Shown in pieces: positions 3,266-27,197 of a DNA stretch of 29,667 bases. The notes under the pieces were generated by a model. The model was not told the origin of the DNA, did no database searches, and saw only the letters and a program-made list of their open reading frames with translations. The translations under genes and the position numbers were made by a program. The DNA is from Anaerolineae bacterium (GTDB lineage Bacteria > Chloroflexota > Anaerolineae > JAAYZQ01). The DNA lies in assembly GCA_016929795.1 (NCBI GenBank), contig JAFGIA010000364.1, forward strand, positions 1-29,667, in the 5' to 3' direction. Each line of letters opens with the position of its first letter. The stretch's first letter is position 1.

Positions 3266-5257
3266 CTAGAAAGAAACGTACTCGTCCCCGACCAGGTCCG
3301 ACTTGTCGACGCCAAGCACGTCGAGCAGCTCAGAGATCATGCCGGCCTTTTGCACCGCGTCCTGCTTGCTCCAGGTGCGCGACTTGACCTCCATGTACGA
3401 GTCCTCGCGTTGTGGCTGCGTCAGGCGGTCGAGGTTGACGGCGAAATCGACCCCGCGGTACTTGATTCGCCACCGGCGGCGGATCTTGTCCACCTTTCTC
3501 TCTGTGTGTGGCTGAAAATACTCGCGGTAGAAGCGTAGACTGCGGTCTGCGTCGGCGGTAAAGCGCGAGCGCGACAGGATCACCGAGTCGTCGTACTCCC
3601 GCTCCCTGGCTGGCCCCCGCAGCGTCAGGTTATAGATCGGGCGCGTCTCCAGGCCGCCGTCGACCAGGTAATCCTCGCGGTAGCGAATGATCCCCTCTTC
3701 CGGATCTTCAAAGAAAAAGTAAGTGTCGTACTGCTTGCGCTCGCTCGGCTTGATCACCATCACCTCAGCACACTCGCTCAGGATGGCGATCAGCCGCTCC
3801 GGGTCGGGCACGCGCACCTTCACCTGCACCTCGTACGTCTCCCCCCATTGCAGCGTGCCCAGGGCCACCAGCTTGTCGACCAGGCTCTGCTCGCGGCGTG
3901 CCAGGAACGCGCCCACCTGGCTGGCGATGCGCTGCGCCTCGCTGCGCACCTGCGCCTCGTCCAGGGTCAGCAGCTCGCGGTCGCGCATCAACCACTGCCC
4001 GTCGACCAGCACATGCTCCACGTCCTGCGATTTGACCGCGTACACGATCGCGGAATAGATGCTGTCGAGGCTCATGTCAAAGTGGGGCACGTTGTGCACC
4101 GCGTGCAGGTCGATCACCGTCACGTCCGCCCGTTTGCCCGCCTCCAACGAGCCGATCCTGTCGCCCAGGCCCAAGGCGCAGGCGCCGATGCTCGTCGCCA
4201 TCGCAAACGCCTGGCGCGCTGGCAGCGCCGTCGGATCGAGCATCACCCCTTTCGGCAGCAGCGCCGCGAGGCGTGTCTCTTCGAACATGTCGAGGTCGTT
4301 GTTGCTTGCCTGCCCGTCGGTGCCAATGCCCACGGCCAGGCCTGCCTTGAGCATGCCCACCACGTCGGCGATGCCGCTCGCCAGCTTCAGGTTGCTCGTT
4401 GGGTTGTGCGCGATGCCAACCTTTTGCTTGGCCAGCATTTGCCACTCCTGCCGCGTCAGGTGCACACAGTGTGCTGCCAGCACGTGCGCGTCGAACACGC
4501 CATGCTCGCGCAACACCTCCACCGGGCGCGCGCCGTACAGGGCGACCGTGTCTTCTACCCCGCCCACCGTCTCGGCGATGTGAATCAGCAGCGGCACACC
4601 ATGTTCTGTCGCGAGCGCGGCCGAAGCGCGCAGCATGTCAGGTGTGCTTGTCTCGGTGGCATGTGGCCCCACCGCGGGCGTGACGAGTGGGTGGTTGCGC
4701 CACGCCTCGATAAAGGCGCGGCACCGTGCCAGGCTCTCGTCATAGCTCTCGGCATCGGGCGTCGGCCACTTCATGATCGTCTCGGCACAGATGGCCCGCA
4801 TCCCTACCTCACTGGCCGCCTGTGCCACCTCTTCTTCATAGTAATACATGTCGGCAAAGCAGGTGACGCCCGAGCGGATCATCTCCGCGCACGACAGGAG
4901 CGTGCCCCAGCGACAGAACTCGGGGCTGACGAACTCGCGCTCGACAGGCAGCATGTACCCAAAGAGCCACACATCCAGGCGTAGATCGTCGGCCAGCCCG
5001 CGCAGCAGGCTCATCGGCACGTGCGTGTGGGTGTTGACCAGCCCCGGGATGATAGCACATCCGGTGCAGTCCACCACCTCATCCGCCTTCCACCCGGCCA
5101 CTATTTTGTCAGCCGGGCCCACGGCCACCACCTCGCCTTGCGCAATGGCCACCGCGCCCCGGGGATAGATCTCGCCCGAGGCATTCATCGTCACGATCAG
5201 GCCGTTGGCCAGGATCAGGTCAACGGAACCCATTTCGGCGCGGTTCTTGTCCAACAC
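3266..5257 (-). CDS. mtaD: MTA/SAH deaminase (amidohydrolase) fused to a CYTH domain
   Basis: Residues 10-455 are an amidohydrolase of the 5-methylthioadenosine/S-adenosylhomocysteine deaminase group. Zinc ligands are visible: His77 and His79 (NTHTH), His226 in HIAE with Glu229, His263 and Asp314 (GTDG). Such enzymes convert MTA or SAH to the inosine form. Residues 474-663 look like a CYTH (triphosphate tunnel) domain. They open with EVQVKV (Glu476, Gln478, Lys480 against the usual ExExK), followed by paired basic and acidic strand residues (RYRED at 525-529) and EVKSRTW (623-629). Normal MtaD is about 430-440 aa, so the extra 190 residues are a true extension. The start is uncertain. GTG at 5257 is only 3 nt from an AAGGAG site, TTG at 5254 has better spacing (6 nt), and an ATG at 5233 also fits the family. 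It is first of a tight trio with the GNAT and racemase genes. Confidence 0.85.
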   Translation of the reverse strand: MLDKNRAEMGSVDLILANGLIVTMNASGEIYPRGAVAIAQGEVVAVGPADKIVAGWKADEVVDCTGCAIIPGLVNTHTHVPMSLLRGLADDLRLDVWLFGYMLPVEREFVSPEFCRWGTLLSCAEMIRSGVTCFADMYYYEEEVAQAASEVGMRAICAETIMKWPTPDAESYDESLARCRAFIEAWRNHPLVTPAVGPHATETSTPDMLRASAALATEHGVPLLIHIAETVGGVEDTVALYGARPVEVLREHGVFDAHVLAAHCVHLTRQEWQMLAKQKVGIAHNPTSNLKLASGIADVVGMLKAGLAVGIGTDGQASNNDLDMFEETRLAALLPKGVMLDPTALPARQAFAMATSIGACALGLGDRIGSLEAGKRADVTVIDLHAVHNVPHFDMSLDSIYSAIVYAVKSQDVEHVLVDGQWLMRDRELLTLDEAQVRSEAQRIASQVGAFLARREQSLVDKLVALGTLQWGETYEVQVKVRVPDPERLIAILSECAEVMVIKPSERKQYDTYFFFEDPEEGIIRYREDYLVDGGLETRPIYNLTLRGPAREREYDDSVILSRSRFTADADRSLRFYREYFQPHTERKVDKIRRRWRIKYRGVDFAVNLDRLTQPQREDSYMEVKSRTWSKQDAVQKAGMISELLDVLGVDKSDLVGDEYVSF

Positions 5258-7388: not shown

Positions 7389-7417
7389 ATTATACCCGAA
7401 AACCGGGTTGCTGACAA
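7389..7417 (-). promoter_or_regulatory. Promoter of the moeA operon
   Basis: On the minus strand TTGTCA (7417-7412) and TATAAT (7394-7389) are spaced by 17 bp. The boxes overlap the last codons of nhaA, so moeA has its own promoter despite close packing. Transcription should start near 7382, leaving a very short leader. Confidence 0.7.
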
Positions 7418-9264
7418 GGGTCTCCCACCCTTGATCGCAACACCTTGCCCGCACTTGTCAGCGTCAACAATCCGACGCCCACCACGCTCGCCGCCAGAGA
7501 TGCGACGAGGATCGCCGCCTTGGCTGTGTCCAACAGGGCCGGCCTTTCGAACGCCGAGCTGGCGATAAAGAGGGACATCGTAAAGCCGATGCCTGCCAGC
7601 CAGCTCGCGGAAAAGAGCTGTGTCCACGACACCCCGTCAGGTAGATCTGCAAAACGCAGCTTCACCGCCAGCCAGGAAAAGAGGGTGACGCCGATCGGCT
7701 TACCGAGCACCAGCCCGCCGGCGATACCGAGAGCCACACGGCTCGTCAGCATCGTGCCCAGGGCGCCGCCCAGATCGACCCCGGCATTGGCAAAGGCAAA
7801 GATGGGCACCACGAGGTAGGCAACCCAGGGGTTGAGCAGGCGTTCCAGCCTGCGCAGTGGCGACTGCATGCGCTCGGCGAGCGTCTCCAGGGTCTGCGCG
7901 GCTGCCTGCTGTCTGCCGCTCTCCTCTCCGGCTGTCTCGTCGTTGCCTATCTGGCCCAGCGCCGCGGTGCACTGGGCACCGTACGCGGCGGGTGCCTGTG
8001 GGTTTCTCGCCGGGATCGTCATCGCCAGCAGCACGCCTGCAATCGTCGGGTGAATGCCCGACTGTAGAAAGGCTAGCCACAGGCCGATGCCGAGCAGCGC
8101 GTACGGAAGCGGGCTGCGCACCCTGCCCCGGTTCAGCACGGCCAGGATAGTCAGCAACACAGCCCCGGCGCCCAGCGCTACCCAGGCGATCTCGCCGCTG
8201 TAAAAAATGGCGATCACGAGGACTGCCCCCAGGTCGTCGGCAATCGCCAGCGCGGTAAAGAATACCTTGAGCGATGTAGGCACACGCTTGCCGAGCACGG
8301 TCAGCATGCCCAGCAGAAAGGCAATGTCCGTCGCCATGGGAATCCCCCACCCGGAGCCACCCTCGCCGCCTCTATTGAGCGCGGCATAGATCGCCGCCGG
8401 CACCACCATACCGCCCACCGCCGCCATCAGCGGCAGCGCCGCGCGCCGTAGCGAGGCTAGCTCGCCGACGAGCACCTCGCGCTTGATCTCCAGGCCGACC
8501 AGGAAGAAAAAAATGACCATCAGCCCGTCGTTCACCCAGTGGAGGAGGTTCTCCGACAATGCTCTGTCGCCCAGGCTGACCGTCAAGTGGGTCCCCCACA
8601 CCTCAAAGTAGCTCTGCCCCCACGCCGAGTTGGCCCACACCAGAGCCAGGACCGTGGCCAGCAAAAGCAGGATGCCGCTCGACGCCTGGATGCTCGTAAA
8701 CTGCTGGAACATGAGGCGCACCCGCACGCCCAGCGGTTTCTCGATCTGTGCCGCCAGCGACGCCAGGTCCCACGGCCCGTCATAGCGCACCTGGTTCAGG
8801 TAAAAAGTGGGTGTCCCCCGCGCGCCGCTGCTCACCGCGCTCTCCACATCGCGCTGCACGCGCACGCTGTGCACCCCCTCATCGAGCTCTTGCCGGAACT
8901 GCCCTACGTCGAGCTCCAGCTCGGCCGCATATTCGAGCAGGTGTTCTCTGTCCAGCTCCACCTGGTGCCTGAAGAGAAGGTCGTGCATCTCCCAGAATTT
9001 GCCCTGTGCGTCGGCCGCCTCGGCCGCTTCGGCCGCAAGCCTGGCGTGAGGATGTACCTGGTCCAGGGGAAAATGGCGATAGACGTAGCGCAGCCTCTCG
9101 CCAAACTGCTCGCGCAGCTCGTCGATGATCGGCACCACGTGGCGGCAGTGACGGCATTCATAGTTGCCATACTCCACGAGCGTCACGGCGGCGTCATCGG
9201 GACCTTGAACGTGATCCCTCGGATCAACAGCCACCTTGAGCCTGGCCGCGTCGGTTGTTGCCAC
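7390..9264 (-). CDS. nhaA: DsbA-like thioredoxin domain fused to Na+/H+ antiporter NhaA
   Basis: Residues 20-178 are a DsbA/thioredoxin_4-type domain with active site CRHC (Cys37-Cys40), a helical insertion and the cis-Pro loop GTPTF (150-154). Residues 183-605 are NhaA, with about 11-12 hydrophobic segments, the HWVNDGLMVIFFFLVGLEIK block (242-261), GIPMATDIAF (307-316), the ion-binding pair Asp343-Asp344 (AIADDLGAV) and Lys522 (LGKPIG). It exchanges protons for sodium across the inner membrane. No signal peptide precedes the redox domain. Since NhaA N termini face the cytoplasm in E. coli, the domain is probably cytoplasmic. The GTG at 9264 has an AAAGGA site at 6-nt spacing. A GTG at 9297 overlapping the upstream stop is the alternative. 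NhaA fused to a thioredoxin-like domain is known in some bacteria; the order here is redox domain first. Confidence 0.88.
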   Translation of the reverse strand: MATTDAARLKVAVDPRDHVQGPDDAAVTLVEYGNYECRHCRHVVPIIDELREQFGERLRYVYRHFPLDQVHPHARLAAEAAEAADAQGKFWEMHDLLFRHQVELDREHLLEYAAELELDVGQFRQELDEGVHSVRVQRDVESAVSSGARGTPTFYLNQVRYDGPWDLASLAAQIEKPLGVRVRLMFQQFTSIQASSGILLLLATVLALVWANSAWGQSYFEVWGTHLTVSLGDRALSENLLHWVNDGLMVIFFFLVGLEIKREVLVGELASLRRAALPLMAAVGGMVVPAAIYAALNRGGEGGSGWGIPMATDIAFLLGMLTVLGKRVPTSLKVFFTALAIADDLGAVLVIAIFYSGEIAWVALGAGAVLLTILAVLNRGRVRSPLPYALLGIGLWLAFLQSGIHPTIAGVLLAMTIPARNPQAPAAYGAQCTAALGQIGNDETAGEESGRQQAAAQTLETLAERMQSPLRRLERLLNPWVAYLVVPIFAFANAGVDLGGALGTMLTSRVALGIAGGLVLGKPIGVTLFSWLAVKLRFADLPDGVSWTQLFSASWLAGIGFTMSLFIASSAFERPALLDTAKAAILVASLAASVVGVGLLTLTSAGKVLRSRVGDPCQQPGFRV

Positions 9265-9293
9265 TTTGTTTCCTTTCTTCGATTCTCTATCGG

Positions 9294-10298
9294 TCACAAT
9301 CCCCTGGGGTGAGCCACCTCGACTGCCTGCCGCGCCGCACGCAAATTGGCCCACGGTGCCGTGATCGGCGTCACGCAGCCCGTCCCCAGGATAAAGCGCC
9401 GGCCGCCCGTCTGTTCGATCGCCTCTGCGGCTTCTGCCTGCACATCGTGTGGCGTACCGCGCAGCATCGTGTCCCACTGCCGCAAGCCCCCCAGCACCGC
9501 GCCTGTCACCCGCTGCTGTCCCTCCTGCAGCCTGGGCGGCGTCTCCCTGTCGTGCCAGTTCACAACCTGCACCGGATAGTCGGCCAGCAGGTCGAACATG
9601 ACCCGGTGGCCGTGCAGGTGCAGAACATTCAGCCACAGGCCGCTGGCCGCTTCCAGCAGCCGCCTGTCGAACGGCACACCAAACTCCTGATACTCCTGCT
9701 CCGACATCAGCCCATAGTTGGCGTGCTGCACCGCCAGAAAAATACCGGCGATACCCCGCTGCCGCGCCGCCTCGATGAAACGCACCGTCGTCTCTGTGAT
9801 CGTCTCCAACCCAATGCGCACCGCCACCGGGTTCTCACGAACGTGAGCCAGCAGGTGATCGCGCCCCACCAGGTTCTTGGCCTGCGACAGGGGGTTAAAG
9901 ATCGTCTGGATGAAGGGCACCTCGTCGCCCACCGCATCGTGGATCAGCTCCAGGCAGCGGAGCTGGGCGCCGAGCGCGCCCTGATCTGGCCCCAGGCGCC
10001 GCAGCCCCTGCCACTCTTCCGGTGCCCGCACCGGCTGGTGGCAATAGTCGCGCGTCCCCTCCTGGTTGCCACTCCAGACATCCTCTACCCCCCAGTCTCG
10101 CACGGCAAAGCTGCTGGCGGGCGTGACCTTGATAAAGTCGAAATCATACTGCCGCTGAAAGGCGAGCGTCGACGCTGCGAGCGCCGCCGGGTCCTGGTCG
10201 TCGCCCGGAAAGTGGCGCCACAGCGCCACCGGAAGGCGGTCCGTCTCTTCGCCGCGGATCGCCGCTTCCAGGCGCTCCCGCTTGGTCATAGTTGGCAT
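9294..10298 (-). CDS. Uroporphyrinogen decarboxylase-family protein (MtaA/CmuA-like, not HemE)
   Basis: This 334-residue TIM-barrel protein belongs to the URO-D superfamily, which contains haem-pathway HemE and cobamide-dependent methyltransferases. The HemE signature RQAGRY near the N terminus is absent; residues 23-34 read PVALWRHFPGDD instead. His-containing strands (LHLHG, NWHDRE) and a C-terminal GTGCVTP then PWANLRAARQAVE stretch fit the MtaA/CmuA side of the family. The reaction is therefore more likely a methyl or one-carbon transfer than decarboxylation of uroporphyrinogen, but the substrate is unknown. The ATG at 10298 has GGGAGG five nt upstream. The gene ends about 30 nt before nhaA, with a possible GTGA overlap if nhaA starts at 9297. 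Confidence 0.78.
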   Translation of the reverse strand: MPTMTKRERLEAAIRGEETDRLPVALWRHFPGDDQDPAALAASTLAFQRQYDFDFIKVTPASSFAVRDWGVEDVWSGNQEGTRDYCHQPVRAPEEWQGLRRLGPDQGALGAQLRCLELIHDAVGDEVPFIQTIFNPLSQAKNLVGRDHLLAHVRENPVAVRIGLETITETTVRFIEAARQRGIAGIFLAVQHANYGLMSEQEYQEFGVPFDRRLLEAASGLWLNVLHLHGHRVMFDLLADYPVQVVNWHDRETPPRLQEGQQRVTGAVLGGLRQWDTMLRGTPHDVQAEAAEAIEQTGGRRFILGTGCVTPITAPWANLRAARQAVEVAHPRGL

Positions 10299-12180: not shown

Positions 12181-12984
12181 ATGGCGCGGGGCTTGAACAG
12201 GGTGATGATCATCGGCTTGGTGGAGCGAGAGCCAGAGCTGCGCTCTACCGACGGCGGCCAGCAGGTGGCTTCTTTCTGCGTATCCACCAGGAGACATTGG
12301 ACCACCGTGGCCGGGCAGGTGCGTGAGTCGAGCGAATGGTTCAACGTCGTCGCCTGGGGCGAGCTGGCAGATACCTGTGGCCAGTGCCTCAAAAAGCATC
12401 AGCGTCTGTACGTCGAGGGGCACCTCCAGACGCGTAGTTGGGAAGGCGAGGATGGGCAGCGGCACATCCGCACCGAGGTCGTGGCCGAAAAGCTGATCCC
12501 CATGGGCAGCTTTGACACGATCGAGGCCCGGTTGCTGCAAGAGGAGGCCTGCCTGAACCGGGTCATGGTCATCGGCAACCTGGGCCGCGACCCGGAGATG
12601 CGCTACACACCCGATGGGCAGGCGATCACCTCCTTCAGCCTCGCCACCACGCGTGCCTGGAACAGCTCAAACGGGGGGCGACGCGACACCACCGAGTGGT
12701 TCAACGTCGTCGCCTGGGGCAGCCTCGCCGAGATTTGCCACGAGTATCTGAGCAAGGGGCGCCGCGTCTACATCGAGGGCGAGCTGCGCACGCGGGGCTG
12801 GGAGCAGCCCGACGGCCGCAAGCACTTTCGAACCGAGCTCGTCGCCGGAGAGATGATCATGTTGGGGCCCCGGCCCCGCACCCGAGAAACCGGATCTGAT
12901 GTCGGCCCTGGACATGGGGTCGGCCAGACACGAGATAACTTGGCTGTGTCGAGCCCGTGGGCCCGCAGCAATCAGCAAGAATAG
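12181..12984 (+). CDS. ssb: Single-stranded DNA-binding protein with two OB folds
   Basis: The 267-residue protein contains two complete SSB domains. Residues 4-110 begin [17 protein letters not shown] and include [12 protein letters not shown]. Residues 125-230 begin [17 protein letters not shown] and include [12 protein letters not shown]. The second is closer to consensus SSB. Ordinary bacterial SSB has one OB fold (about 110 of 150-180 residues) and works as a tetramer. A tandem form working as a dimer is known from Deinococcus and Thermus. The C terminus ends in ARSNQQE, without the acidic DDDIPF-like tip that recruits partner proteins. The GGGGG-rich site upstream of the ATG is adequate. 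The stop lies 20 nt before the rpsR start. Confidence 0.93.
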
Positions 12985-21183: not shown

Positions 21184-21220
21184 GCGCCGCATGGTTGGCG
21201 ACGCGAGCCAGGAGCGCGAT

Positions 21221-21685
21221 GTGACCACCATCTATACCATCGGCCACAGCAACCACGAGGCCGGCGTCTTTATCGCGCTCCTGAAACAGCATGGCATCCA
21301 GGTGGTCGTCGACGTGCGCAGCAGCCCCTACAGCCGCTACGTGCCCCAGGCCAACCGTGAGGTCCTTGCCCGAGCCCTCAAAGCCGCCGGCATCGACTAC
21401 CTCTGGTGGGGCGATCGCCTCGGCGGCAAGCCCGAGGGCGTCGTGGCTGATTACCACGCCCTGCGCGCCGAACCATCGTTCCAGGGCGGCATCGCCGCCC
21501 TGGAGTCCCTCGCCGCGTCGCATGCCACCACCATCATGTGCTCCGAGGGCGACCATACCCGCTGCCACCGCCACAAGCTCATCACCCCCGAGCTCGTCGC
21601 CCGTGGCCTCCACGTCCTCCACGTCCAGCCCGATGGCACCCTCGTCGACGAGGGCGCCGCGCCGCGCCAGTTGAGCCTTTTCTGA
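21221..21685 (+). CDS. DUF488 family protein (first copy)
   Basis: The 154-residue protein opens VTTIYTIGHSNHEAG and contains VDVRSSPYSRYVPQ and the C-terminal CSEGDHTRCHRHK motif. These three blocks define DUF488. The paired cysteines and His/Arg near the end resemble a catalytic or metal-binding cluster. The biochemical role is not established. Start: GTG at 21221 has an AGGAG site 6 nt upstream and matches the usual family N terminus. An ATG at 21191 would add ten residues without family similarity. Its stop is one base before the second copy. Confidence 0.82.
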   Translation: MTTIYTIGHSNHEAGVFIALLKQHGIQVVVDVRSSPYSRYVPQANREVLARALKAAGIDYLWWGDRLGGKPEGVVADYHALRAEPSFQGGIAALESLAASHATTIMCSEGDHTRCHRHKLITPELVARGLHVLHVQPDGTLVDEGAAPRQLSLF

Positions 21686-21686
21686 C

Positions 21687-22130
21687 ATGACCAAGCTATA
21701 CACCATCGGGTACACAAAAAAGAGCCTCGAGCACTTTATCCGCATGTTGCAAGAGGCTGGCGTCGATGCCGTGGTCGACATCCGCCTGCGCAACACGTCG
21801 CAGCTCGCCGGCTTTGCCAAGAAGGATGATCTCGCCTTCTTGCTGCGCGAGGGGTTTGGGATCGAGTACGAGCACCGTCCCGACCTGGCGCCCGCGCCCG
21901 AGATCCTCGACGGCTACAAGGAGAGTGGCGATTGGGCCGGCTACGAGGCCCTATTTTGCCAGCTACTGGATGAACGCCAGGCCGAGGCTGCCGGGGCCGA
22001 GATTCTGGCCCGATACCGCCGGCCCTGCCTCCTCTGCGCCGAACCCAAGCCAGATCGGTGCCACCGGCGCCTGGTGGCAGAATGGTGGGCCGGGCACCTG
22101 CCTGGCGTGGAGGTCGAACACCTGATCTGA
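21687..22130 (+). CDS. DUF488 family protein (second copy)
   Basis: The 147-residue protein begins MTKLYTIGYTKKSLEHF, has VVDIRLRNTSQLAGFAKKDDL and ends with CAEPKPDRCHRRLVAEWW. It is a diverged paralogue of the preceding gene: same three blocks, but GYT replaces GHS and the middle region belongs to the longer-loop subgroup. One base separates it from the first copy, so the pair may act as a heterodimer. The next gene begins about 65 nt downstream. Confidence 0.83.
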   Translation: MTKLYTIGYTKKSLEHFIRMLQEAGVDAVVDIRLRNTSQLAGFAKKDDLAFLLREGFGIEYEHRPDLAPAPEILDGYKESGDWAGYEALFCQLLDERQAEAAGAEILARYRRPCLLCAEPKPDRCHRRLVAEWWAGHLPGVEVEHLI

Positions 22131-22195
22131 GCGGCCGCCCGGAATCCCCGGGCTCTGTACATGACCATCGTGCAGGGAAGCACAGGAGCGCCATC

Positions 22196-22921
22196 GTGGC
22201 TACAGCAGATCTTCTCCTACTCGCAGTAACCAGGATGCATGCCGGCATCTGCGTCGCCGGCATGACCACCGAGCCCGACCCCGTCACGGGGCTGCGTTGG
22301 GTGCGTCCCGTCCGCGAGCACGGGCACGTCCTCCTGGGCGACATCACCACCGCCGATGGCCGCACGCTGCACACCTTTGACGTCGTCGATCTCTCCCTCG
22401 TCCGCCCGTGCCCCGACCCTCCCCACGCCGAGGACTGGATCGTCGACTTTGCCCGCCCCCGCCCCCGTCTCCTGCGCCGCCTTGAAGGCGATCGCCGTAC
22501 CGCCTTCCTTGCCGCCCACCTCGACACCGACCCGCGCCAGGTCCTCGATCTCCACGAGCGCTCCCTCTGCCTCGTCGAGCCGGACCGCCTCTGGGGCCGT
22601 TTCCACCTCGATGCCTACACCGGCAAGCTCGACGCCGCCCTCGGCTTCACTCTCGGGCCCCGGCGCTATGCCGGCTCTCGCGCCAGGGGGGGGCTATCCG
22701 TCACCGACCTGAAGTGGCGTGCCCTCGGCCGCTCGTGGCTGCCCCCTGGTGGCGGCGGCCTCGACTTGGACCGGGGCGACCTCGAAGCGCGCCTCGGCAT
22801 CGAGCATATCTACCTGGTCGTCGGGCTGACGCGCAACTTCAAGGGCGCCTGCTGGCCCATCGTCGTCGGCGTCCACACCGTGCCCGACTACCATGCCCAG
22901 ATCGACTATGACAACCTGTGA
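22196..22921 (+). CDS. Predicted dual-OB-fold domain protein
   Basis: The 241-residue protein has no signal peptide or membrane segment. N-terminal features (a beta-strand, then Cys/Gly, GLRWVRPVREHGH and LLGDITTADGRTLHTFDVVDL) and C-terminal ones (YLVVGLTRNFKGACWPIVVGVH) match what I remember of proteins annotated as dual OB-containing domain. That family is often beside DUF488 and helicase genes. Assignment is from memory and should be tested. Nucleic-acid binding would be expected of OB folds. The GTG at 22196 has AGGAG at 22184-22188. It ends 7 nt before the recQ ATG, so it is in the same operon. Confidence 0.6.
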   Translation: MATADLLLLAVTRMHAGICVAGMTTEPDPVTGLRWVRPVREHGHVLLGDITTADGRTLHTFDVVDLSLVRPCPDPPHAEDWIVDFARPRPRLLRRLEGDRRTAFLAAHLDTDPRQVLDLHERSLCLVEPDRLWGRFHLDAYTGKLDAALGFTLGPRRYAGSRARGGLSVTDLKWRALGRSWLPPGGGGLDLDRGDLEARLGIEHIYLVVGLTRNFKGACWPIVVGVHTVPDYHAQIDYDNL

Positions 22922-22928
22922 GGAGGCC

Positions 22929-25900
22929 ATGACAGACGACATTTTGAACACCTTGGGGCTCACCCCGGCCCACGTGCCCGACCTGCCCTCCCAGACGCGC
23001 AACCGCCTCATCTCCTACCTCCTCCGCTGGGAGCACTTGGCCGCCGCTCGCGACTGCCTCGAGGCCCTTTCAGGCGACCTCGAGCACCGCGTCAGCCTGC
23101 TCGACAACCTCGCCCGCGCCTATGCCGGTCTCGGCGACGCTGCGCGTGCCGTCGACACCATGCGCCGCCGCAACACGCTCCGTGCCTCCAACTCGTCGCG
23201 CATCCTCGAGGCCCAGATGCACCTCGCCGCCGGTGACCTGCCCGCCGCCCGCGCCACCGCCCTCCACCTCCAGTCCGCCGCGCCCGACATGCTCGGCACC
23301 TGGAATCTGCAGGCCGACGTCTGCCTGGCTGAGGGGGACCTCGACGCCGCCGAGGTGGCCCTGCGCCGCATCGAGACCCTCAACCCCGGCAGCACGGTCA
23401 TGGCCGCCGGCCTGGCCCGCGTCTGGCAGGCGCGTGGCGACCCCGACCAGGCCCTCCTCTGGGCGCGCACCGCCCTCTCCCGCCTCGAGGCCGCCGAGCG
23501 CACCCCATCCGTCACCCTGCTCCGACTCCTTGAATCCCTCTACCGCGCGGCAGGCCACCTCGCTCAGGCCGAGGCCACCGCCGCCCGCCTCGCCGCCCAA
23601 CAAAGCGACGAGACCGTCACCCTTCGTGAAGAACTCGACCTTCTCCTCCCCACCACCTCTGCCCCGGCCATCCCCAAACCCTCTCGCCCCTCCCCCAGGT
23701 CGCCTGCCCGACCGGCTCCCGAGCGACCGGCCGGATCTTCCAGACTTCCAACCTTCCCACCTTCCCACCTTCCACCTATCGAGCTCACCCCCGACGAACA
23801 CTCCACCCTGACCACCGCCCTCCACGCCCACTTTCCCCACTCTGCCTTCCGCGAGGGCCAGGCCGAGACGATCGCCGCCGTCCTGCGCGGCGAGAGCGTC
23901 CTCGCCGTCATGCCCACCGGCGCCGGCAAGTCGCTCTGTTACCAGCTCGCTGCCACCCTCCTGCCTGGCACGGCACTCGTCATCTCTCCCCTCATCGCCC
24001 TCATGAAGGATCAACTCGACGGCCTGCCCGATGGTTTGGCCGCAGAAGCGACCGCCCTCAACTACACCCTCGACGGCGCTGAGCTCGACGCCCGTCTGGC
24101 GCGCGTCGCCGCCGGCGAGTGCCGCCTCGTCTATGCTGCGCCCGAGCGCCTGCGCCAGCGCCCCTTCCTCCACGCCCTGAAGCAGGCCGGCGTCTCGCTC
24201 CTCGTCGTGGACGAGGCCCATTGCGTTAGCCTGTGGGGCCACGACTTTCGCCCCGACTATCGCTTCATCGCCCACGCCTGGCGCGAGCTCGGCCGCCCGC
24301 GTATCCTGGGCATGACCGCCACCGCCACCCCCCGCGTGCAGGACGACATCCGGGCCGCGCTGGGTGATATGCGCCTGATCGCCACCGACGTCCACCGCCC
24401 CAACCTTCACCTGGAAGCGCATAGCTTTGCCAACGAAAAAGAAAAGAGCCAGGTCCTCGTCGCCCTTTGCCGCGCCATCGAGGGCAGCCTCATCGTCTAT
24501 GCCAACTCCCGCCAAAAATGTGAGGACCTGGCCGCTCTCCTCCGCCGCGCGCGCATCGACGCCATCCACTACCACGCCGGACTCGACGACCGCGCCGCCG
24601 CCCAGGACCAGTGGATGAGCGGCCGGGCGCGCGTCGTCGTCGCCACCATCGCCCTGGGCATGGGCATCGACAAGGCCGATGTGCGCGCCATCATCCACTA
24701 TAACCCGCCCATGGCGATCGAGAACTATTACCAGGAAGCCGGCCGCGCCGGCCGCGACGGCCAGCCCGCCCGCTGTGTCCTCTTTCACTCCTCGGCCGAC
24801 TGGGCCAACCTCAGCCGCTGGACGCGCCAGGCGGCCCTCGACGTCGACTTTTTGCGGCAGGTGTACGCCGCCGTCGGCCGCCGTCTCGCTGGCCGCGAGG
24901 TCGGCCTCCTCTCCACCGCCGACCTGGAGCGTGACCTGGGCAGCGACGAGACGCGCGTGCGTGTTGCCGTCCACTTTCTGGAGACGGCTGGCTTGCTCTG
25001 GCGCGGCTTCAACCTGCCGCGCACCGCCACGCTCCTGCTGCGTGTGGACCCCGCGGCGCTGCATGGCAAGGGGGGCGGCGCCCTGCGCCGCTTTGCCGAG
25101 GTCGCTCACCTGCGCCCGGGCCAGAGCCTCTCCCGCGACCTCATCGCCCTGGCAGCCGATGCAGCCACAGATGAAGAGCTGAGCGCCTGGCTCGATCCAC
25201 GCCACGTCGAGTACCACCTCCTCGACTGGGCCCGCGCCGGCTGGATCGAATACCGCGGCCTCGGCCGCGACATGCTCCTCGCCCTGCCCCCTGCCCCTTC
25301 CGACTCGCGCGAGCGGGTGGCTGCCCTGCTTGCCGACTACCGGGCCGGCCAGGATGCGCGCCTCGCCGAAATCAAGACCTATGCCCACACCCCTGCCTGC
25401 CGCCACGGCCACATCAGCGCCTACTTTGGCGGCCGCCGCATCGAGCAGTGCGCAGCGTGTGATAACTGTGGCGCCGCCATCCCTGGCGCTGCCGCCCCCG
25501 GCGCCCCTTTCGTCGTGGGCGCTTCAGCGCCGTCCTCCCCGCCTCGCCGCCCGCAATCCCCTACAACAACCCCTGCCCACCCGGCCTGGCACGGCGATCC
25601 CACCTACCCCCTCCTCCAGGCCGTGCGCGATCTGCCCTTCGCCCCCGGGCGCACCGCCCTGGCGCGCATCCTGGCCGGTGCCAGCACCAGCCCCATCAAG
25701 GGGGACCGCTTCCCCCTCTTTGGCATCCTCGCCGGCACCACCCAGGAGCGCATCCGCGCCCTCGCCGACGACCTCGTCGCCCGTGGCCTGCTCGAGTTGT
25801 ACAAGAAGGGCCGCTTCCCCCTTCTGCGGCTCACTGATCAGGGCCGGGCATGGCTCGCCAGCCACCCGCCTGAGAAGCAGCCGGCTGCCGTGTCCCCCGG

Positions 25901-26207
25901 GCGTGTGGACGAGCCCCCCCAGCCGGCCGCGCCATCGCGCCGGCCAGGGCGCAACAAGCAGGCCGGCGATGAAGGAGCGCCGGAATCGTACGATCTGGAC
26001 CTCTACCAGCGCCTCCGCGCCTGGCGCCTGGAGACGGCCCGCGCCATCGCCAAACCGCCCTACATCGTCTTCCCCGACAGGACACTACAAGAGATCGCCA
26101 CGTCGAGGCCGGCGACCCTCGCCGAGCTGGAAGACATCCATGGCGTCGGCCCTCGGAAATTAGAGCTCTACGGAGAGGCCGTCCTCAAGATCGTCGCGGG
26201 CGAGTAA
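22929..26207 (+). CDS. recQ: RecQ-family DNA helicase with N-terminal TPR-like extension
   Basis: The 1092-residue product is far longer than E. coli RecQ (about 610). Residues 1-235 are TPR-like helical repeats (such as LDNLARAYAGLGDAARAVDTMRR and WNLQADVCLAEGDLDAAEVALRRIETLNPG). A Pro/Ser-rich linker follows (240-285). The 3'-5' helicase core has Walker A MPTGAGKS (328-335), DEAH (428-431), TATATP (463-468) and the motif VI region QEAGRAGRDGQP (602-613). The RecQ zinc site uses Cys824, Cys841, Cys844 and Cys847. A winged-helix (RQC-like) region covers about 890-980, and an HRDC domain covers 1021-1092. RecQ unwinds recombination and repair intermediates. The linker is encoded partly by an 8-nt repeat tract. 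The ATG at 22929 directly follows an AGGAGG site. Confidence 0.9.
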   Translation: MTDDILNTLGLTPAHVPDLPSQTRNRLISYLLRWEHLAAARDCLEALSGDLEHRVSLLDNLARAYAGLGDAARAVDTMRRRNTLRASNSSRILEAQMHLAAGDLPAARATALHLQSAAPDMLGTWNLQADVCLAEGDLDAAEVALRRIETLNPGSTVMAAGLARVWQARGDPDQALLWARTALSRLEAAERTPSVTLLRLLESLYRAAGHLAQAEATAARLAAQQSDETVTLREELDLLLPTTSAPAIPKPSRPSPRSPARPAPERPAGSSRLPTFPPSHLPPIELTPDEHSTLTTALHAHFPHSAFREGQAETIAAVLRGESVLAVMPTGAGKSLCYQLAATLLPGTALVISPLIALMKDQLDGLPDGLAAEATALNYTLDGAELDARLARVAAGECRLVYAAPERLRQRPFLHALKQAGVSLLVVDEAHCVSLWGHDFRPDYRFIAHAWRELGRPRILGMTATATPRVQDDIRAALGDMRLIATDVHRPNLHLEAHSFANEKEKSQVLVALCRAIEGSLIVYANSRQKCEDLAALLRRARIDAIHYHAGLDDRAAAQDQWMSGRARVVVATIALGMGIDKADVRAIIHYNPPMAIENYYQEAGRAGRDGQPARCVLFHSSADWANLSRWTRQAALDVDFLRQVYAAVGRRLAGREVGLLSTADLERDLGSDETRVRVAVHFLETAGLLWRGFNLPRTATLLLRVDPAALHGKGGGALRRFAEVAHLRPGQSLSRDLIALAADAATDEELSAWLDPRHVEYHLLDWARAGWIEYRGLGRDMLLALPPAPSDSRERVAALLADYRAGQDARLAEIKTYAHTPACRHGHISAYFGGRRIEQCAACDNCGAAIPGAAAPGAPFVVGASAPSSPPRRPQSPTTTPAHPAWHGDPTYPLLQAVRDLPFAPGRTALARILAGASTSPIKGDRFPLFGILAGTTQERIRALADDLVARGLLELYKKGRFPLLRLTDQGRAWLASHPPEKQPAAVSPGRVDEPPQPAAPSRRPGRNKQAGDEGAPESYDLDLYQRLRAWRLETARAIAKPPYIVFPDRTLQEIATSRPATLAELEDIHGVGPRKLELYGEAVLKIVAGE
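23736..23776 (+). repeat. Short tandem repeat inside the RecQ linker
   Basis: A pyrimidine-rich tract with repeated CTTCCA/CCTTCCCA units (period 7-8) encodes the linker segment between the TPR-like and helicase parts. The reading frame stays open across it. Confidence 0.6.
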
Positions 26208-26424: not shown

Positions 26425-26462
26425 AAGGAACCTCGACTCGCGATGAGCCGAGGTCCTTTTTT
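26425..26462 (+). terminator. Intrinsic terminator downstream of recQ
   Basis: Arms 26425-26435 and 26449-26458 pair with one bulged base, with an inner 3-bp stem. Six T follow (26457-26462). It would end the DUF488-recQ transcript after the pseudogene and separate it from the convergent toxin-antitoxin pair. Confidence 0.8.
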
Positions 26463-26487: not shown

Positions 26488-26862
26488 TCAGGAATCGATG
26501 ATATCATCCGGTTCAAGTCCCAACTCCTTTGCAATGGCAGCCAACGCCTCAGGACCTGGCTTTCTTTTGCCTGATTCAACCTGCGACAAGTACGATGCAC
26601 CAAGACCACTGGCTTCTGCCAACCGCTTCCGACTCATCCCGCGATGTTCTCGCCAGACACGTACCGGGTTGGCACCATCCAGTATGGCATAGGTCACCTC
26701 GCTCGGGACCAGTTCCTCTCCTGCGGCCACCGCCTTTTTGGCCTCGTCGTAGGCGCGTACATCCTGCAACATCTCAGCCTCTTCTACCAGTCTCTCATAC
26801 TCTTCATACGGCAGCACCGCCCATTCAGGCTTGCCGTTCTTTTCGATCACCTGTACGCTCAT
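26488..26862 (-). CDS. XRE-family antitoxin
   Basis: The 124-residue protein has an N-terminal segment (about 1-60; EWAVLPYEEYERLVEEAEMLQD) like the dimerising part of Phd/YefM-type antitoxins. A Cro/C1-type helix-turn-helix follows at about 68-118 (WREHRGMSRKRLAEASGLGASYLSQVESGKRKP). It should neutralise the RelE-like toxin and repress the shared promoter. Its ATG overlaps the toxin TGA as ATGA. Toxin-first order is typical of HigBA-like pairs. The DNA is less GC-rich than its neighbours, which suggests acquisition by transfer. Confidence 0.85.
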   Translation of the reverse strand: MSVQVIEKNGKPEWAVLPYEEYERLVEEAEMLQDVRAYDEAKKAVAAGEELVPSEVTYAILDGANPVRVWREHRGMSRKRLAEASGLGASYLSQVESGKRKPGPEALAAIAKELGLEPDDIIDS

Positions 26863-27122
26863 CGGTATACCTCCCCACGCGACCCTATCCGAAGCACCAG
26901 GACAATCAATTCGTCATTCTCAACCTCATAGATTACCCGCCAGTCCCCCACCCGCAGACGATAGCCAGGCCGGTTCTGAAGCTTGGTCACATCAAGATGC
27001 TCGGCGTAAGGATTTGTCGCGAGATCGTCCAGGCTGCGATGAATTCGCTGGGCAATACTCCGCGAAAGTTTGCGGAGCGTTTTGTCAGCACTCTTTGTGA
27101 ATAGGACTCTGTACACTGGCAT
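26859..27122 (-). CDS. RelE/ParE-superfamily toxin
   Basis: The 87-residue protein shows the RelE fold signatures: FTKSADKTLRKL (8-19), the RSLDDLATNPY helix (29-39), LQNRPGYRLRVGDWRVIYEVEND (48-70) and VLRIGSRGEVYR at the end. The GYRLRVGDWRVIYEV strand pair and the C-terminal Arg/Tyr are typical of mRNA-cleaving RelE enzymes. The start is uncertain. ATG at 27122 fits the family, but an in-frame ATG at 27176 has a better ribosome site (GGGAG, 5-nt spacing) and would add 18 basic residues. Confidence 0.85.
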   Translation of the reverse strand: MPVYRVLFTKSADKTLRKLSRSIAQRIHRSLDDLATNPYAEHLDVTKLQNRPGYRLRVGDWRVIYEVENDELIVLVLRIGSRGEVYR

Positions 27123-27197
27123 GGTTCTCTCTGGCCGTCTGCATATCCTTGCCGCAGAGCGGTTCTCTCGTGGCATCTACGCTCCCGATCCACGCCA

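Follow-up and report, generated by a model that had tools for sequence, protein, structure and literature searches.

A DUF488 pair and a dual OB-fold gene recurrently joined to a RecQ-family helicase in a class of Chloroflexota

The window, i.e., the entire 29,667-nt stretch of DNA analysed here (contig JAFGIA010000364.1 of an Anaerolineae bacterium), contains a row of four genes on the plus strand. The open reading frames agree with an earlier sequence-only reading, which had described four co-directional genes with gaps of 1, about 65, and 7 nt; the intergenic distances are 1 nt (D1/D2), 65 nt (D2/DuOB), and 7 nt (DuOB/RecQ). The features are as follows:

21221–21685, plus strand: D1, a DUF488 protein (154 aa, GTG start)
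21687–22130, plus strand: D2, a DUF488 protein of the DUF488-N3a subclade (147 aa)
22196–22921, plus strand: DuOB, a dual OB-fold protein (241 aa, GTG start)
22929–26207, plus strand: RecQ-family helicase (1092 aa)
22929–23720, plus strand: TPR-like N-terminal region of the RecQ protein (TPR matches below cut-off)
26427–26462, plus strand: terminator-like hairpin with T6 (identified by eye from the sequence)

An ATG at position 21191 is a possible alternative start of D1. The row had also been said to end in a terminator. A hairpin at approximately 26427–26456, followed by six T residues (26457–26462), is indeed present in the sequence as read by eye, and a computed hairpin scan gives the hairpin at 26427–26456 on the minus strand only. 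The structure is located about 220 nt beyond the RecQ stop codon, ahead of a convergent toxin–antitoxin pair; the terminator is therefore real but remote from the end of the row. An Rfam scan of the window yielded no family at its gathering score.

DUF488 is still named a "domain of unknown function" in Pfam. Both proposed paralogs proved to be members of the family (PF04343; cut-off 22.2 bits), with scores of 78.4 bits for D1 and 79.6 bits for D2. Membership in DUF488-N3a (PF22751; cut-off 27 bits) is restricted to D2 (33.6 bits), because D1 remains below the cut-off (16.1 bits). The motifs D31-x-R33, C107-x-E109, and C115-H116-R117 of D1 (103 aligned sequences) and D31-x-R33, C117-x-E119, and C125-H126-R127 of D2 (114 aligned sequences) are at least 99% conserved in alignments from which rows below 60 bits were left out and whose set did not include DUF488–RecQ fusions. 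Judging from these alignments, the C-x-E and C-H-R residues are a candidate active site. The AF2 model of D2 (pLDDT 90.5) has its nearest folds among CobF, PTP/DSP, and diphthine synthase in a structure comparison, so that the predicted fold resembles phosphatases and related methylases; searches of solved structures with the sequences of D1 and D2 returned no matches at E ≤ 0.1. Burroughs and Aravind reportedly described in 2023 a rhodanese-phosphatase superfamily with a RapZ-C–DUF488–DUF4326 clade, for which they are said to have predicted DNA-end processing in conflict systems. D1 and D2 share the DUF488 membership with this superfamily, and the predicted fold of D2 is close to those of PTPs and diphthine synthase.

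The third protein matches the Pfam family DuOB (PF22557) with 66.2 bits (cut-off 27 bits; profile positions 3–157 of 210). The nearest folds of its AF2 model (pLDDT 79.5) are mostly OB-fold nucleic-acid binders, albeit with modest scores. The predicted fold of the N-terminal half resembles that of OB-fold ssDNA binders (OB domains of BRCA2, CST/RPA, SSB, and RecO), and the C-terminal half of the model aligns with BrxL. A search of solved structures with the DuOB sequence gave chance-level matches only. By family assignment, the protein is a putative dual-OB protein, and the OB fold on which the sequence-only reading depended is predicted, with modest scores, from structure comparison instead of HHpred.

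The fourth protein belongs to the RecQ family (TIGR00614, 337.9 bits; cut-off 219.8 bits) but falls short of the equivalog model for canonical RecQ (TIGR01389, 478.1 bits; cut-off 640.2 bits). It shares with canonical RecQ the DEAD, Helicase_C, RecQ_Zn_bind, RQC, and HRDC domains, all of which score above their Pfam cut-offs, and contains the motifs GAGKS (residue 331) and DEAH (residue 428); among solved structures, RecQ (4tmu) and the helicase 1oyw come closest to it. It differs from canonical RecQ by a TPR-like N-terminus, followed by DEAD and Helicase_C, and by a spacer of about 190 residues that precedes RecQ_Zn, RQC, and HRDC. In the window, TPR models match this N-terminus only below the Pfam cut-offs (TPR_19, 22.0 vs. 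25 bits); the label is nevertheless retained, because homologs at three other loci exceed the cut-off (L012, 42.0 bits; L002, 26.4 bits; L216, 26.9 bits), in keeping with the added TPR-like region proposed for this RecQ. Such a region is also present in most RecQs encoded by a separate gene.

The sequence-only reading further proposed that the genes form a functional unit, a view to be refuted by a lack of recurrence in related genomes; the genes do recur together. Among 298 genomes sampled from one class of Chloroflexota, DuOB is present in 55, and both DUF488 genes are located near it in 50 of these. Of the 55 genomes, 27 encode a DuOB–RecQ fusion and 15 a RecQ downstream; RecQ was not found in 8, and the locus is unreadable in 5. 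In this tally, one genome (G282, locus L078), in which the frames of DuOB and a TPR-RecQ overlap, is counted as having a separate RecQ, and seven others (G001, G002, G004, G005, G007, G008, and G010, with G007 cut inside the TPR part) were classed individually. Hence, of the 50 DuOB loci whose downstream DNA can be read, 42 have RecQ fused or next downstream, which is far beyond the roughly 0.01 expected from RecQ density (estimated from 144 matches among 298 genomes, each of about 4.5 Mb). The gene order is nearly constant among RecQ-bearing loci, and DUF488–RecQ fusions occur in two other genomes.

The fused RecQs and the TPR-type RecQs fall into separate clades, neither of which is the closest relative of the other; therefore, the triad probably acquired RecQ on at least two occasions, apparently by separate recruitment in two lineages. 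A few cut loci were assigned to their type by hand. The AU test on the RecQ tree comprised every second sequence (52 of 102 rows) without the long rows L240 and L261; its TPR group included TPR-RecQs without an adjoining DuOB, its fused group included DUF488–RecQ rows and rows from cut contigs, and its p-value is somewhat optimistic because the groups were defined only once the first tree was known. Recurrence, fusions of RecQ with both DuOB and DUF488, and the apparent separate recruitment strongly support a functional unit; it may serve in repair, modification sensing, or defense, the alternatives originally offered.

The three-gene core is an already catalogued, unvalidated defense candidate. 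The PADLOC models PDC-M45A, PDC-M45B, and PDC-M45C, for which no curated cut-offs are shown, match DuOB, D1, and D2 with 45.1 (a partial match, residues 3–85), 136.6, and 164 bits, with the components side by side. Another locus (L014) matches these models much better than the window and has the gene order A-B-C, whereas the order in the window is B-C-A-RecQ, with RecQ as an addition; no part of PDC-M45 is among the 25 families listed of the 40 PADLOC families that match the RecQ protein. The triad without RecQ is more widely distributed than the four-gene module, extending to other phyla and to plasmids, and RecQ was unseen in most lineages that carry the triad. The DuOB sequence of the window itself has no match in plasmids. 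A literature search, whose coverage did not extend to the 2023 superfamily survey, found no paper on PDC-M45 or on a DUF488–DuOB–RecQ system; the link of DUF488 and DuOB to RecQ may already be in print.

A role in defense against phages or plasmids is a rival reading that we rate at somewhat below even odds. DuOB would detect nucleic acid that is foreign or modified, D1 and D2 would alter either the ends of this nucleic acid or a nucleotide signal, and in some lineages RecQ would expose or unwind the target. This role is suggested by the PDC-M45 assignment, by the patchy distribution (55 of 298 genomes), and by the plasmid neighborhoods, where defense genes adjoin the triad in three of the seven that were read: CBASS in Agrobacterium (pAt1D1108a), type III CRISPR genes in Allochromatium (pAt1), and a NotI-type restriction pair in a Klebsiella plasmid. 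Moreover, an Eco57I-type methylase is located beside or in frame with D1 at two loci (L174 and L218). The other four plasmid neighborhoods, however, lack defense genes except for toxin–antitoxin pairs, and the DuOB of L014 has no match in 50,697 phage records. No recurrent flanking genes mark the class loci (the largest cluster comprises 5 loci), and each of the first 25 of 55 PADLOC families, ranked by count, matches 1 of 130 genes flanking RecQ-bearing loci (E ≤ 1e-20). A second set of mostly RecQ-free loci (9 of its 133 genes are from six RecQ-bearing or cut loci: L007, L057, L058, L077, L085, and L087) is no richer, with at most 2 of 133 genes per family. This crude test, which left out frames shorter than 150 or longer than 900 aa and some others at random and whose figures are per family, with the number of distinct genes matched not given, showed no difference between RecQ loci and the others. 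In addition, most PDCs are unvalidated (PMC12988326). The defense proposal concerns biological role and does not conflict with an end-processing mechanism.

Slightly less probable, but still a tentative option, is that the module is an endogenous RecQ pathway specialized for blocked DNA ends and plays no part against phages. RecQ-bearing loci have mostly ordinary neighbors, and a second RecQ_Zn match is rare in genomes with a module RecQ (5 of 42, including one, G203, that may be the same broken gene); such a match is present in 80 of 243 genomes without DuOB and in 6 of the 8 DuOB genomes without a module RecQ. These counts ignore kinship, however, and of 15 TPR-type RecQs the RecQ_Zn model detects only 4; where the DuOB locus is cut, all five genomes contain a RecQ_Zn match at another site, although at least three of these matches may be lost halves. 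The patchy distribution also counts against this reading, and RecQ-free triads on small plasmids are ill-suited to pure housekeeping. RNA termini, or small molecules resembling NAD or ADP-ribose, are unlikely targets of the DUF488 pair (with DuOB and RecQ as sensors), since RecQ is a family of DNA helicases, whose recruitment points to DNA. The absence of RecQ from most triad lineages would fit a cassette that merely precedes RecQ by chance co-transcription, but the existence of in-frame DuOB–RecQ and DUF488–RecQ fusions all but refutes this explanation; also the near-constant gene order in RecQ-bearing loci and the separate RecQ clades make it highly improbable, and RecQ is unlikely to be a bystander.

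Our main reading, to which we assign a probability of roughly 0.5, is that the four genes encode a single module for processing nucleic-acid ends. RecQ would unwind DNA starting at a nick, gap, or end; DuOB, as a tandem-OB protein, would grip the exposed single strand or terminus; and at this terminus D1 and D2 would remove a phosphate- or ribosyl-type group or transfer it, a chemistry proposed because of the conserved cysteine site and the phosphatase-like predicted fold. The proteins may form a physical complex with DNA as its substrate, and the biological role would be either the repair of blocked ends or an attack on invading DNA. More tentatively, DUF488 and DuOB may represent a new class of DNA-end-processing machines that captured a RecQ motor at least twice, once by fusion and once as a TPR-extended partner, in addition to the direct DUF488–RecQ fusions.

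The fusions and the RecQ partners from different clades provide a concrete substrate hypothesis, namely, DNA ends exposed by a helicase, and the DuOB–RecQ and DUF488–RecQ fusions are single-chain proteins that can be directly purified and assayed. A catalogued but unvalidated defense candidate is extended by one gene, RecQ. If a DUF488–DuOB machine with a RecQ motor indeed exists, DNA would be established as what DUF488 acts on, and the unvalidated candidate would become a system whose motor is defined.

The sequence-only reading had described four co-directional genes; all four lie on the plus strand, separated by gaps of 1, 65, and 7 nt:

21221-21685, + strand: D1, DUF488 (Pfam)
21687-22130, + strand: D2, DUF488 (Pfam)
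22196-22921, + strand: DuOB gene (dual OB-fold), DuOB (Pfam)
22929-26207, + strand: RecQ gene, RecQ (Pfam)

D2 passes the Pfam cut-off of the "active DUF488-N3" subclade, whereas D1 fails it. The first three genes (the triad) are recognized by the PADLOC models of an unvalidated defence candidate (PDC-M45B, D1; PDC-M45C, D2; PDC-M45A, a partial match to DuOB). The last gene belongs to the RecQ family (337.9 bits; NCBIfam cut-off 219.8) but does not reach the cut-off of the canonical recQ equivalog (478.1 against 640.2). Its DEAD, Helicase_C, RecQ_Zn_bind, RQC, and HRDC domains all exceed the Pfam cut-offs, and the TPR matches at its N-terminus are sub-threshold. About 190 residues (~612-804) separate Helicase_C from the Zn region, with a similar spacing in the RecQs of loci L002 and L012. 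The terminator proposed to end the row exists as a terminator-like hairpin with six T, but is located ~220 nt beyond the RecQ stop. Other features of the window are:

26488-27176, - strand: convergent toxin-antitoxin pair
26859-27176, - strand: ParE-type toxin of this pair
26488-26862, - strand: its antitoxin, Phd/YefM-like N-terminus (sub-threshold) and HTH_3 C-terminus
12181-12984, + strand: one 267-aa protein with two tandem SSB (OB) stretches
7390-9636, - strand: DsbA/thioredoxin-like domain and NhaA-type Na+/H+ antiporter in a single frame
3266-5257, - strand: amidohydrolase, ~240-residue C-terminal extension without Pfam match at E ≤ 0.001

The recurrence of these genes, for which a neighbourhood survey had been proposed, is evident in related genomes. 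Named relatives of DuOB are mostly Chloroflexota, and a close match (P0003, 80%) is labelled Chromatiales. A search of GTDB species genomes with an alignment of 25 DuOB proteins yielded 13 loci, a set biased by its selection for similarity to the window DuOB, and the order D1-D2-DuOB-RecQ is present in all 13 as far as the contigs extend (that of L001 begins at DuOB; that of L007 stops within the TPR part). They include genomes labelled Armatimonadota, Ktedonobacterales, and Chloracidobacterium, the last with a RecQ that lacks the TPR part. In a less biased sample, the class of genome G001, 55 of 298 genomes have a DuOB match (one, G253, under the family cut-off). Annotation of all 55 surroundings with query proteins from three loci placed D1 and D2 on the same strand within 4 kb of DuOB in 50 genomes; the others lie at contig ends (G001, G061, G125) or have no D1 or D2 nearby (G127, G191). 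RecQ shares the open frame of DuOB in 27 of the 55 (fused-type), is the next gene downstream in 15 (gaps up to ~0.8 kb; G007 and G234 show the TPR part only), was not found near DuOB in eight, and is unreadable in five because contigs end less than 1.5 kb away. Flank genes outside the four show no recurrence (biggest cluster, 5 of 61 loci).

In the fused frames, DuOB is N-terminal and RecQ lies behind it. The fusion of L018 comprises DuOB (15-216) followed by DEAD, Helicase_C, Zn, and RQC (Pfam), with Helicase_C and the Zn region adjacent, unlike in the spaced window RecQ. Further DuOB-RecQ frames are the diverged L269 and L212 from the Armatimonadota sample. Among 59 RecQ stretches remote from DuOB matches (some genes counted twice), there are two DUF488-RecQ fusions (L236, 292-3036, - strand; L264, 3098-5812, - strand) and one D1 immediately upstream of RecQ (L233); both cysteines are gone from the DUF488 part of the fusions but kept in L233.

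Judging from the phylogenies, RecQ was probably added to the triad on more than one occasion, and the RecQ tree favours separate recruitment. Among 102 RecQ cores (FastTree), separate RecQ genes with a TPR-like N-terminus (TPR-type) form a clade of 28 rows (support 1.0) and fused-type RecQs one of 34 rows (0.83; 0.93 without the two outermost rows); the two clades occupy separate regions of the tree, with non-module RecQs lying between them. A mixture-model tree of 52 rows also separates the two (SH-aLRT 99 and 96), and a single clade is rejected (p-AU 0.0025; groups defined once the first tree was known). RecQs of G186, G119, and G203 found on other contigs are nested in the fused clade, and the G127 RecQ is nested in the TPR clade (FastTree), as expected where a contig end has cut through a gene. 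For six TPR-type RecQs, no neighbouring DuOB was seen. The D2 tree, built on 112 rows (28 from fused loci, 23 from TPR-type loci, and 61 for which no RecQ is known), requires eight switches between presence and absence of RecQ. Placing every RecQ-linked D2 in a single clade is rejected (p-AU 2e-10), gain and loss being indistinguishable from the trees. The long-branched RecQ of L013 (Chloracidobacterium) may, with little certainty, be a third recruitment.

The triad without RecQ is more widespread than the RecQ-bearing form. In samples of other groups, named by the titles of the seed loci, DuOB (E ≤ 0.001) occurs in 31 of 251 genomes of the phylum Chloroflexota, 4 of 199 of Acidobacteriota, and 22 of 151 of Armatimonadota. 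Among 53 loci read from them, contig-end-cut loci included (two class-sample repeats, three seed loci, and a 43-residue fragment of G797 omitted), at least two same-strand DUF488 genes lie within 2.5 kb of DuOB in 37, one in 2, and none in 14; RecQ lies within 2.5 kb in four. Twenty D2-like matches without a PF22557 match, hand-picked from a longer list, include diverged triads (L092, L094, L095, L109), a D2 immediately upstream of a TPR-RecQ (L096), and several lone D2. Lone D2 homologues near the L014 type (L097, L098, L100-L103, L110), with no D1 or DuOB seen, mostly have neighbours of alike gene lengths (~338 aa and ~550-600 aa). In L186-L192, DuOB stands alone, no DUF488 having been seen, and may have a different role; gene lengths look similar across L188-L191, and in L187 the neighbouring genes encode a protein with a guanylate-cyclase domain and a PucR-type regulator. 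An Eco57I-type methylase shares a single open frame with D1 in L218 (6106-9846, - strand) and lies upstream of D1 in L174 (6824-10441, - strand).

A role of the module in defence is suggested by the cataloguing of the triad in PADLOC, its patchy spread, and its plasmid settings. L014-like DuOB occurs in 19 of 72,556 plasmid records, among which no window-like DuOB was found at E ≤ 1e-3. Of seven plasmid neighbourhoods read, one lies beside CBASS genes, one beside type III CRISPR genes, and one beside a NotI-type restriction pair; the remaining four show at most toxin-antitoxin pairs or an SNF2-related gene. Plasmids of Citrobacter, Acinetobacter, and Klebsiella carry DUF4326 as third gene, replacing the second DUF488. 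PADLOC PDC systems are reported to be products of a guilt-by-embedding survey and mostly unvalidated (PMC12988326), and two others among them, PDC-M63AB and PDC-S04, were reportedly inactive on testing (PMC12409345). The ordinary neighbours of RecQ-bearing loci speak against a purely defensive function: of 55 PADLOC families with matches at E ≤ 1e-20, the 25 listed each match a single one of 130 flank genes. The picture is similar around the other loci, where no listed family matches more than 2 of 133. A further RecQ_Zn match is found in 5 of 42 genomes with a module RecQ versus 80 of 243 DuOB-free genomes (Fisher p 0.006, ignoring kinship), a hint that the cell's working RecQ is the one in the module. 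Many TPR-type RecQs escape the RecQ_Zn model, and each of the five genomes with a cut DuOB locus has a RecQ_Zn match elsewhere.

The triad was already known as a candidate; among titles and abstract beginnings, a reach outside which the most relevant survey lies, no paper linking RecQ to it by operon or fusion was found. The parts are ordinary, but the unit is real and has been repeatedly rebuilt.
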